From Oceanispirochaeta sp. (lineage in GTDB: Bacteria; Spirochaetota; Spirochaetia; DSM-2461), in contig NZ_JAQIBL010000191.1 of assembly GCF_027859075.1 (NCBI RefSeq), forward strand, positions 1-57,918: a stretch of DNA of 57,918 bases, given 5' to 3'. Positions within the stretch are counted from its first letter, which is position 1, and each line of letters opens with the position of its first letter. The notes beneath the pieces were generated by a model, which was not told the DNA's origin, ran no database searches, and saw only the letters and a program-made list of their open reading frames with translations. Shown piece by piece: positions 54,340-57,822 of this stretch. Both the position numbers and the translations under genes were made by a program.

Positions 54340-55158
54340 ATGTCAGACTTCCTGAAGGACTCTGATTTCATGAGAATTAGAGATCTCATATATAATGAAA
54401 GTGGAATCCATTTCTCTGATTCAAACAGAACCATTCTTGAAAGCCGATTGAAGGAACGCCTGAAACTTCTGAAACTGGAGAGCATCAGTGAGTACTATAA
54501 TTCCTTGACAGGAAGTGACAGTGAGTTGAAAGATTTTCTGGATTCAGTCACGACCAATCTGACTCGCTTTTTCAGGAATCAGGCCCATTATGATACATTC
54601 ATAAATTATGTGATTCCTGACCTGGTAGAACGCAAAAGAAAAAGTGGTGAAAAGAAAATCTCAATATGGAGTGCCGGATGTTCTACTGGAGAAGAACCCT
54701 ATACAAATGCAATGGTCCTCAAAGAACACCTCCCTCCGGATTTCAAGATCGAAGTTGTAGCTTCTGACCTCAGTCTTAAATCATTGATGAAGGCAAAAGA
54801 AGGGGTTTATTTAAAGAATCGGATTACTGGAATCCCGGATAAATATCTGAATAAATACTTCACAGAAGAGGATAATAGCTATAGGGTTAAGCCGGAAATT
54901 GGGGGACTAATCAAATTTGATTATCACAACCTGAAATTCGGAAGCAGTTTGAAGAACCTGGACATTGTTTTCTGCAGGAACGTATTAATCTACTTTGATG
55001 AACCTGCACAAAAAAATGTTATTGACAACTTCTGGAATTCAATGGCCCCCCACTCCTATTTGTTTATTGGTCATTCCGAGTCACTTTTCGGCATGGATAC
55101 TCAATTTAAATTTATTAAAACAGACTGGGCGTGTATCTACGGTAAAATTAAGGATTAA
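54340..55158 (+). CDS. cheR: Chemotaxis protein methyltransferase CheR
   Basis: This 272-residue SAM enzyme methylates glutamates on chemoreceptors. It has the N-terminal helical domain, the VTTNLTRFFRNQAHYDTFIN linker, the SAM site IWSAGCSTGEEPYTNAMVLK, and DIVFCRNVLIYFDEPAQKNV near the end. AAAGGAC lies ten bases before the ATG. It is followed by cheB 15 bases away, forming an adaptation operon. No receptor gene is adjacent. Confidence 0.96.
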   Translation: MSDFLKDSDFMRIRDLIYNESGIHFSDSNRTILESRLKERLKLLKLESISEYYNSLTGSDSELKDFLDSVTTNLTRFFRNQAHYDTFINYVIPDLVERKRKSGEKKISIWSAGCSTGEEPYTNAMVLKEHLPPDFKIEVVASDLSLKSLMKAKEGVYLKNRITGIPDKYLNKYFTEEDNSYRVKPEIGGLIKFDYHNLKFGSSLKNLDIVFCRNVLIYFDEPAQKNVIDNFWNSMAPHSYLFIGHSESLFGMDTQFKFIKTDWACIYGKIKD

Positions 55159-55173
55159 GTAAGAGAGGCTTCT

Positions 55174-56319
55174 GTGTCAGAGAACAAAATATCAGTGCTG
55201 GTTGTAGACGATTCGGCATTGATGAGAAATATAATATCCAAACTGATCGAAAAAGACAGCGATCTTCAGGTCGTTGGTACGGCCATGAATGGTCGTTTTG
55301 GATTGAACAAGATTCCCCGGCTGACCCCGGATGTGATTGTTCTGGACCTGGAAATGCCCGAAATGAACGGCATTGAGTTTCTTAAGGAGATGCATAGCCT
55401 AGGTCATAACATCCCTGTAATCATCCTGTCATCCATCGCCAAAAAAGGCGCCCGAATCACCATGGAAGCCCTGGCTCTGGGAGCCTCTGATTTTATAACA
55501 AAACCCAGCGGTTCGACTCCGGATGAGCTTGAAAAAATCGGAAATCAACTCGTAACAGTTCTTAAAGCCTTCGGTAGCAATTATAGAAGAAAGCAGGGGA
55601 ACAGCGTTCCTCCTCTTGTGGACAAGCAGGTTCAGTCTCTGTCTATGGATATGGAAACCAATCGGCAGGAATCATCTCGTTTGCCTGGTAGAATCAGTAT
55701 CAAACAGGATGCCTGGGAAAAAATAACACCTTCGAAAGAGCCGGAAAAGCCGGAAGTCATTGTCATTGGCATCTCAACTGGAGGACCAAATGCCCTCAGG
55801 AAGGTCTTTTCAGAAATAGATCCAGAACTTTCTGTACCGATTGTAGTGGTTCAGCATATGCCCGCCGGGTTCACCAAGGAGTTTGCCGCCAGTCTGAACA
55901 GGATTTGTCCACTGGAAGTCAAAGAAGCTGCTGAGGGTGACCTGGTCAAGGCAGGTAGGATACTGATTGCTCCAGGTGATGCTCATGTCTCTATCGAAAA
56001 GAAGTCCCTGGCCTCAATTATTCACCTCCACGATACTGAGCTGGTCAATGGACACAAGCCCTCTGCGGGGGTCCTTTTTGATTCGGTTGCCTGCGCTTAT
56101 GGAAATAAATCCATTGCTGTGATCATGACAGGGATGGGTAAGGATGGAGCACGGGAAATCGGAAAGGTCTTCAAAGAGGGCGGGATGACGATTGCCCAGG
56201 ATTCTTCCTCATGCATTGTCTATGGAATGCCCAGGGTCGCCGTAGAACATGACTACATCCGGAAAATCGTATCCCTGGATGACATGGCCCAGACCATCAG
56301 CAGGCTGGCGGCAGGCTAA
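55174..56319 (+). CDS. cheB: Chemotaxis methylesterase/glutaminase CheB
   Basis: This 381-residue protein has a receiver domain (residues 1-125; SVLVVDDSALMRNIISKLIE at the start and phospho-Asp in VIVLDLEMPEMNG) and a C-terminal methylesterase. The catalytic Ser is in VIVIGISTGGPNALRKVFSE, the His in VVVQHMPAGFTKEF and the Asp in IMTGMGKDGAREI. It starts with GTG after AAGAGAGG. With CheR it sets receptor methylation. The linker (about 130-185) is longer than usual. Confidence 0.96.
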   Translation: MSENKISVLVVDDSALMRNIISKLIEKDSDLQVVGTAMNGRFGLNKIPRLTPDVIVLDLEMPEMNGIEFLKEMHSLGHNIPVIILSSIAKKGARITMEALALGASDFITKPSGSTPDELEKIGNQLVTVLKAFGSNYRRKQGNSVPPLVDKQVQSLSMDMETNRQESSRLPGRISIKQDAWEKITPSKEPEKPEVIVIGISTGGPNALRKVFSEIDPELSVPIVVVQHMPAGFTKEFAASLNRICPLEVKEAAEGDLVKAGRILIAPGDAHVSIEKKSLASIIHLHDTELVNGHKPSAGVLFDSVACAYGNKSIAVIMTGMGKDGAREIGKVFKEGGMTIAQDSSSCIVYGMPRVAVEHDYIRKIVSLDDMAQTISRLAAG

Positions 56320-56324
56320 AAAGC

Positions 56325-56792
56325 TCAACCGCAGCCTTTACAGGCTTTACAGGCGTCATGACAATCCATGAATTCCTTCATATCCTCTAATGACATCTTC
56401 CTCTTTATGACGGGTAGTTCTCCCGGTCCTTTGAATTTGCGCAGCAGAACATTCAGGCCCACTCCAGCGGCCAGACCCAGGACTCCAGAGAAAAACAGAA
56501 GAACTTCCACAGCTGTCAAAAAAGAAGCGATTCCATAAAAAGCCAGAAATCCTAAAAGAGGAACCATGAAGATCATAAAGGCCGCGATGATGGAAGACTT
56601 GGGATCTATCAGGATTTCCACCATATCACCCTTGGACAATGAAAATGCTTCTGGATTTTCGGCAGGAAAACAGCGTTCCTTGACCTTCCAGAAGGAGCGG
56701 GATGCTTTTGATTTATCCGCCTTGGGATTGGGATAACGGACAAGGATTGTATCATCCGTCAATTTTTCTTCAACGATTGTTGGTTGTATCAT
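56325..56792 (-). CDS. RseC/MucC-like membrane protein
   Basis: This 155-residue protein has an N-terminal beta-type part, then two membrane helices (IIAAFMIFMVPLLGFLAFYG and LTAVEVLLFFSGVLGLAAGV) and a cytoplasmic tail ending in CHDACKACKGCG. RseC family members feed electrons to or regulate redox and sigma-E systems. The N-terminal cysteines of typical RseC are missing, and the cysteine cluster is at the C-terminus instead, so the match is partial. It overlaps the YmdB-like gene by 23 bp and is probably co-transcribed. Confidence 0.65.
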   Translation of the reverse strand: MIQPTIVEEKLTDDTILVRYPNPKADKSKASRSFWKVKERCFPAENPEAFSLSKGDMVEILIDPKSSIIAAFMIFMVPLLGFLAFYGIASFLTAVEVLLFFSGVLGLAAGVGLNVLLRKFKGPGELPVIKRKMSLEDMKEFMDCHDACKACKGCG

Positions 56793-57582
56793 CAGGTTTC
56801 TCCGTACAGGGTATTCTTAAGGTTTCGATGCTCCGGGCTTTTCCCTGATCATCCAGATCAAGGAGAACGCCCTGCATTTCCAGCTGATCCCAGGCATCCT
56901 GGGACCTTTCTGGTATCTGAGTCAGGAATTTTTGAATCTCCAGATTCTTCTCCAGACCTCCCACAGAATGAAGGCTTCCACAGCGGCCGGCATCTGTAAT
57001 CATGGCAGTTCCCTTTTTCATTAGGCCAGCATCCGCAGTTATGGCTTTCGTTCCCGTTCCAATCATGGCACTGGCATGGCCGTCTACAATATAAGCAAGG
57101 GTCTGCTTCTCTGCCGTTGTGGTAGCATGGAAGTTTACAATGATATGGGGGGTGGTTTCTTTCACTCGGCTGATCAGATCAGTGACATATGAAAATGGAT
57201 TTGACAGGTGTACTCTCTGATATCCGGATTGACCCAGAAGACTAATGATGGCGATTTTCTGATCTCCCACATTATAGATACCCCATCCTCTTCCGGGACT
57301 ACCGGGTGGATAGTTTGCAGGGCGGATCAAAAAGGATGCTTTTGGGATAAATCCCACCATATCCTTTTTATAGAAGACACATTCTCCCGAAGTAATGGCA
57401 TCAAGTCCCAGTTTCTTCAGATACAGAGAATGATTCATTCCCATTCCAAAACCACCGGTCACACCGTTCCCGTTGGCAACGACAAAATCGAGGTTCTTTT
57501 CTTCTTTTAGTTTCGGAAGTAGTTTTTTGACAGTAAAGACACCGGCCTTACTGACAATCTCTCCAATAAACAGGATTCGCAT
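56770..57582 (-). CDS. YmdB-family protein lacking most metal ligands
   Basis: This 270-residue protein aligns without gaps to Bacillus subtilis YmdB numbering, as I recall it, over at least the first 177 residues. YmdB is a dinuclear-metal cAMP/cGMP phosphodiesterase. Of its eight ligands (D8, E39, N40, N67, H68, H150, H175, H177), only H150 remains here (IIVNFHATTTAEK). The others read E8, N39, G40, E67, C68, G175, K177 (GEIV, VVANGNG, TSGECVF, IGTGTKAIT). The RPANYPPGSPGRGW scaffold is intact. So it is probably inactive as that hydrolase and may bind a partner or ligand. The ATG at 57582 has AGGAGG one base upstream, an unusually short spacing; TTG 57600 is the alternative start. Confidence 0.85.
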   Translation of the reverse strand: MRILFIGEIVSKAGVFTVKKLLPKLKEEKNLDFVVANGNGVTGGFGMGMNHSLYLKKLGLDAITSGECVFYKKDMVGFIPKASFLIRPANYPPGSPGRGWGIYNVGDQKIAIISLLGQSGYQRVHLSNPFSYVTDLISRVKETTPHIIVNFHATTTAEKQTLAYIVDGHASAMIGTGTKAITADAGLMKKGTAMITDAGRCGSLHSVGGLEKNLEIQKFLTQIPERSQDAWDQLEMQGVLLDLDDQGKARSIETLRIPCTEKPDDTTNNR

Positions 57583-57709: not shown

Positions 57710-57793
57710 GCCTGGATGGTGAAATTGGTAGACACGCTAGTTTCAGGGACTAGTGCGGGTAACCGCGTGGAGGTTCGAGTCCTCTTCCAGGCA
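57710..57793 (+). tRNA. tRNA-Leu(CAG)
   Basis: This is an 84-base class II tRNA. The acceptor stem is GCCTGGA/TCCAGGC and the anticodon stem CTAGT/ACTAG, with loop TTCAGGG giving anticodon CAG. A long variable arm and T arm GAGG-TTCGAGT-CCTC follow. The discriminator is A and no CCA is encoded. Confidence 0.94.
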
Positions 57794-57822
57794 CAATACA
57801 AACCCTTTCGGGGGATGAGATT

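Follow-up and report, generated by a model that had tools for sequence, protein, structure and literature searches.

The closest described relative of the protein studied here is YmdB of Bacillus subtilis (structure 4b2o; families PF13277 and TIGR00282). In its active site, D8, E39, N40, N67, H150, H175 and H177 act as metal ligands and H68 forms a catalytic dyad with D71 (PMC10406935). By our reading of the same work, D8 and H177 coordinate one shared metal. Even for the B. subtilis protein, the physiological substrate has yet to be identified (PMC6123443). A second system of relevance is the lasso-peptide epimerase MslH, which carries an extra G-domain and has a published identity to YmdB of 16%. 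MslH has a YmdB-like fold that has lost one of the two metals and been put to a new use; its Ca site is equivalent to YmdB E39/N67/H150/H175, and the equivalents of His68/Asp71 and Asp8/His177 are retained as catalytic dyads (PMC10406935). MslH is hence a precedent for the YmdB fold dropping a metal site and taking another job.

Non-catalytic subunits with a phosphoesterase fold are already known elsewhere. Vps29 and the B subunits of eukaryotic DNA polymerases are inactive metallophosphoesterase-fold subunits that serve as non-catalytic partners. They belong to other families and other organisms than the protein described below.

A full-length YmdB homologue with a replaced active site

The window, that is, the whole stretch of Oceanispirochaeta sp. 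DNA that was analysed (57,918 nucleotides), encodes a YmdB homologue that we term YmdB2. Throughout the text, YmdB1 designates the intact, rny-linked copy, and YmdB2 the window protein and its clade. The gene and the codons that correspond to the YmdB active site, located by means of alignments, are the following:

56770..57582, minus strand: ymdB2, coding for YmdB2, a YmdB paralogue and putative pseudo-phosphodiesterase (270 aa, ATG start at 57582)
57559..57561, minus strand: Glu8 codon (canonical Asp8, metal site I); E in 80/84 distinct YmdB2 sequences
57463..57468, minus strand: Asn39 and Gly40 codons (canonical Glu39 and Asn40); G40 in 65/84, N39 lineage-specific
57379..57384, minus strand: Glu67 and Cys68 codons (canonical ligand Asn67 and catalytic His68); E/D67 in 84/84
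57127..57129, minus strand: His152 codon (canonical His150), the sole retained ligand
57046..57054, minus strand: Gly177, Thr178 and Lys179 codons (canonical His175-x-His177); K/R at canonical 177 in 79/84

A tRNA-Leu (CAG) gene is located at window positions 57710-57794, divergent from ymdB2.

Pfam family YmdB (PF13277) matches YmdB2 over its full length (273.5 bits, residues 4-254; cut-off 27), and B. subtilis YmdB 4b2o aligns with it end to end (170 bits), as do D. radiodurans 1t70 and relatives. By sequence, YmdB2 is a full-length homologue of the same fold family. Its TIGR00282 score is 210 bits, under the curated equivalog cut-off of 254.15. Eight more YmdB2 proteins scored 158-234 bits, all those tested falling under the cut-off, and two YmdB1 proteins scored 268 and 364.

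When compared with YmdB, the window protein carries the substitutions D8E, E39N, N40G, N67E, H68C, H175G and H177K and keeps H150. Its ligand string in the alignment is ENGEC/H/GK, versus the canonical DENNH/H/HH, and a two-residue insertion shifts canonical His150 to His152 in its own numbering. These seven substitutions and the retained H150, proposed in the initial annotation of the window, were confirmed by reading them directly off the alignments. The proposal also counted eight metal ligands and called for comparison with TIGR00282 and the YmdB structures. Seven of the eight are indeed ligands, but H68 is catalytic (PMC10406935), so that six of seven ligands are lost; 4b2o aligns throughout, but the equivalog model is not reached. 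A single metal ligand is thus left in the window protein, and both members of the catalytic dyad are changed (H68C and D71Y). The site I ligands and the dyad of B. subtilis YmdB are replaced, and so are the His68/Asp71 and Asp8/His177 equivalents that MslH retains (PMC10406935).

Five orthologues of the same genus, 74-91% identical, carry the identical set of substitutions, which rules out chance or a sequencing artefact. Judging from these residues, hydrolysis of phosphodiesters by a YmdB-type dinuclear centre appears very unlikely in YmdB2; the sequence gives good support to a loss of catalysis of the dinuclear kind. An AlphaFold model computed from two sequences had a mean pLDDT of 41 and supports no structural claim.

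An ancient paralogue of an intact YmdB

A second YmdB, the existence of which had been raised as a question in the initial annotation, is present in the window's genome. It lies on another contig (G000:C308), directly downstream of rny, and is intact, with all positions canonical (DENNHHHH). Unlike the B. subtilis gene, ymdB2 has no linkage to rny: it precedes rseC, whereas the intact copy follows rny. Spirochaete YmdB1 proteins (L001, L054-L073, L105-L144) keep all metal ligands and His68; their residue 71 is mostly Gln, Glu, Asn or others, not the Asp71 of the dyad.

Most of the genomes of 61 relatives contain two YmdB copies. In a 110-row YmdB tree built without the ligand columns, all 63 YmdB2 rows are grouped by a branch with an SH-aLRT value of 99. 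Within the class, nearly all genomes with any YmdB contain a member of the YmdB2 clade, which also occurs outside the class in three genomes of two families (G061, G073 and G082). Elsewhere in the phylum sample, most genomes have one match, canonical wherever residues were read. YmdB2 is one ancient paralogue of single origin. A scan of viral contigs yielded no relative. Matches on plasmids and chromids outside the spirochaetes are distant YmdB homologues (at most 38% identity), and other phyla may hold a stripped copy of this kind.

Within the genus, unsaturated YmdB2 pairs have dN/dS values of 0.03-0.14, comparable to those of YmdB1; the values are rough as dS is high. Purifying selection on YmdB2 is as strong as on YmdB1. 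The protein combines, as a pseudoenzyme with a conserved non-catalytic role should, a loss of catalytic residues shared by an old clade with purifying selection.

Conservation of the replaced positions and stepwise loss of site-II residues

The substitutions at positions 8 (E), 40, 67 (E/D), 68 and 177 (K/R) are common to the whole YmdB2 clade, with the counts among 84 distinct sequences that are listed above. All canonical copies (52/52) read DENNHHHH, a uniformity that holds by definition, since the group was defined by this string. Within YmdB2, the conservation percentiles of positions 8, 67 and 177 are 94, 95 and 87, and positions 68, 39 and 175 score lower than the median. Basic residues are conserved at K/R19 (84/84), K/R72 (84/84), K/R123 (83/84) and R200 (79/84). 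In YmdB1, positions 123, 200 and 177 are not basic, and 19 and 72 are basic in a minority or in about half of the proteins. As three altered pocket positions are among the most conserved residues, it is more likely that the pocket has a function than that the protein is just a passive scaffold.

The site-II set (acid39, acid67, H150 and H175) is kept in 38/84 distinct YmdB2 proteins, the remainder having lost part of it. Early-branching YmdB2 rows retain most or all of the set, which undergoes about 11 changes on the tree, and the window's family is among the most stripped (N39, G175). E39N and H175G arose later and are confined to particular lineages. Raw counts of residues 39/175 are striking, with N/G in 30, E/H in 26, and no E/G or N/H; on the tree, this correlated change comes down to some five independent pairs (p about 0.125).

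The loss of both metal sites had been proposed, with ligand-bearing orthologues named as evidence to the contrary. Both sites are lost in the window's family and in some lineages, but the clade-wide loss, as read from the sequences, concerns site I together with the catalytic His, and seven of the eight residues are lost in some lineages only. Related spirochaetes share the substitutions at 8, 40, 67, 68 and 177 but not those at 39 and 175, where many orthologues keep E/D39 and H175; to this extent, the contrary evidence exists.

In a Treponema-like genus (G385, G446, G456 and G501; loci L110, L113, L114 and L117), YmdB2 contains an additional insert and has lost more of the ligands (EGMD, SGG). 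In the closed genome G501, the C-terminal part of YmdB2 is out of frame. A relative of this genus with a 1.1 Mb genome, G098, has lost both YmdB copies.

YmdB1 and YmdB2 are retained and lost together

YmdB matches are present in 302 of 391 class genomes, nearly all of which have two. When only class genomes assembled in 10 contigs or fewer are considered, 59 contain both copies, 14 contain neither and none contains exactly one (counted from tabulated matches, with rounded contig numbers and with no-match genomes identified against the RNase Y table). Twelve drafts have YmdB2 only; 11 of these 12 also lack a full rny locus, and the missing YmdB1 is therefore probably an assembly gap. Nine drafts have YmdB1 but not YmdB2, and assembly gaps are possible there too.

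Placed on an RNase Y tree, the absence of both copies needs three separate joint losses: in G098, in the main Treponema-like clade and in G454, a draft. RNase Y itself is kept in 387/391 genomes, and its loss was rejected as the cause of the joint YmdB loss. In the genomes of the Treponema-like family f25 that were checked (G262, G456 and G049), YmdB1, YmdB2 and rny are far apart on the chromosome, so that joint loss there is not easily explained by one deletion. YmdB1 is the gene-content partner of YmdB2. This joint retention suggests that YmdB2 assists or regulates the active enzyme as its partner.

The RseC-like neighbour

The gene that follows ymdB2 in the window is:

56325..56792, minus strand: RseC-like two-transmembrane protein (PF04246, 42.8 bits)

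This gene starts within the 3' end of ymdB2, with which it shares 23 bases, and its product ends in a four-Cys tail, CHDACKACKGCG. An overlapping rseC-like gene follows ymdB2 in most families of the class. Family f25 keeps RseC without either YmdB, and the f20 genomes (0.9-1.2 Mb) keep YmdB2 without RseC; as each persists without the other, RseC was rejected as an obligate partner. In f8, f27 and f33, rseC adjoins rnfC, away from ymdB2; rnfC is also present in the window's genome. RseC is a conserved but dispensable operon partner of ymdB2. The coupling to RseC, initially taken as a clue to context, reflects a real conserved operon, but it is not obligate, and the partner by gene content is YmdB1.

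Several genomes have lptC/lptA/lptB-like genes and an rpoN-like gene directly after ymdB2-rseC. In the window, convergent cheR and cheB genes (54340-56319) separate their counterparts from rseC; these recurring clusters were assigned by similarity, partly from reading sequences. The cheR-cheB pair is an apparent insertion, since rseC adjoins the lpt/rpoN-like string in other genomes.

Among the window gene and loci L009-L155, RseC proteins of the window's family have lost the N-terminal cytoplasmic Cys motif and gained the C-terminal four-Cys tail; in most other spirochaete families the N-terminal motif is present and the tail absent. In E. coli RseC, the N-terminal cytoplasmic Cys motif is of the Fe-S type (PMC11729352). 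Since both ends of E. coli RseC are cytoplasmic, the cluster may by analogy have moved rather than vanished.

Discussion

Selection for a non-catalytic role of YmdB2 had been suggested in the initial annotation. Selection for a role other than that of a dinuclear phosphodiesterase is well supported by the ancient clade, the shared substitutions, the purifying selection and the intact paralogue. As to what this role is, we consider that there is about an even chance that YmdB2 is a pseudo-phosphodiesterase that serves as non-catalytic partner or regulator of YmdB1. An ancient spirochaete paralogue of YmdB would have kept the fold and given up dinuclear metal catalysis. Site I (D8, N40 and H177) would have been converted to the conserved Glu8 and Lys/Arg177, probably a charge pair replacing the metal, which would be a natural reading given that D8 and H177 share one metal in YmdB. 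N67 would have become an acid, and the catalytic His68 would have been freed to vary. Many lineages may retain a single-metal site II made of acid39, acid67, H150 and H175, and the window's family would have lost this site too (E39N, H175G). YmdB2 would then act on YmdB1 by forming a mixed oligomer; alternatively, its basic pocket might hold the same kind of phosphate-containing ligand as YmdB1, uncut. Several observations weigh against a partnership of this kind. Direct contact between the two proteins is putative, and one shared pathway could also give joint retention; no more than three joint losses are counted, and G454, where one of these occurred, is a draft; the nine drafts mentioned above have YmdB1 without YmdB2; and bacteria outside the group manage with YmdB1 alone. 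A more specific version, which we put forward tentatively as the less probable of the two, is that YmdB2 is a class-wide receptor subunit with a metal-free, charge-paired site (E8-K/R177, K/R123 and R200) that controls YmdB1.

The conserved basic residues at 19, 72, 123, 177 and 200, newly acquired as judged from the alignments, would also suit a receptor that works independently of YmdB1, its metal-free pocket binding a small molecule with a phosphate group or the end of an RNA and signalling to RseC, with which it shares a conserved overlapping operon, or to another protein. This is rather unlikely, as it leaves unexplained why YmdB1 is lost alongside every loss of YmdB2, and the small f20 genomes keep YmdB2 without RseC. 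The conserved charges of the pocket also fit a new, metal-independent enzyme. The YmdB fold might indeed have been re-tooled for a mono-metal or metal-free reaction, as in MslH: the acids E8 and E/D67 are near-invariant, and the set kept in 38/84 YmdB2 proteins occupies the positions of the single Ca(II) of MslH (PMC10406935). However, residues 68, 39, 150 and 175 vary by lineage, unlike what one conserved chemistry would show, and the repeated changes of the site-II set speak against it as well; we regard such an enzyme as unlikely. Even less probable is a role as maturation factor of Rnf, a membrane redox complex, jointly with RseC. The ymdB2-rseC overlap in most families, the rnfC of the window's genome and, in the window's family, the coincidence of site II loss with the passage of the RseC Cys motif from the N to the C terminus would all be in its favour, but that coincidence amounts to about one event. 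Furthermore, Treponema-like genomes keep RseC and Rnf without YmdB2, f20 keeps YmdB2 without RseC or a full-score RnfC, and rseC sits beside rnfC, away from ymdB2, in three families. A redundant copy decaying by drift after duplication would account for the lost ligands and for the broken frame of the closed genome G501. As a general account it is refuted by the full-length open frame found class-wide, the age of the clade, the low dN/dS and the conservation of the substituted residues, and we give it next to no credence.

Within the literature searched, no paper on a spirochaete pseudo-YmdB was found. Homology-based annotation can label this near-universal spirochaete protein a metallophosphoesterase despite the absent metal centre. 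A dead twin that is kept or lost with the live enzyme is a handle on what YmdB binds and how it is regulated. If the receptor-subunit version proposed above were true, an active enzyme would have its dead twin as a sensor, across both free-living and small-genome, host-associated spirochaetes.
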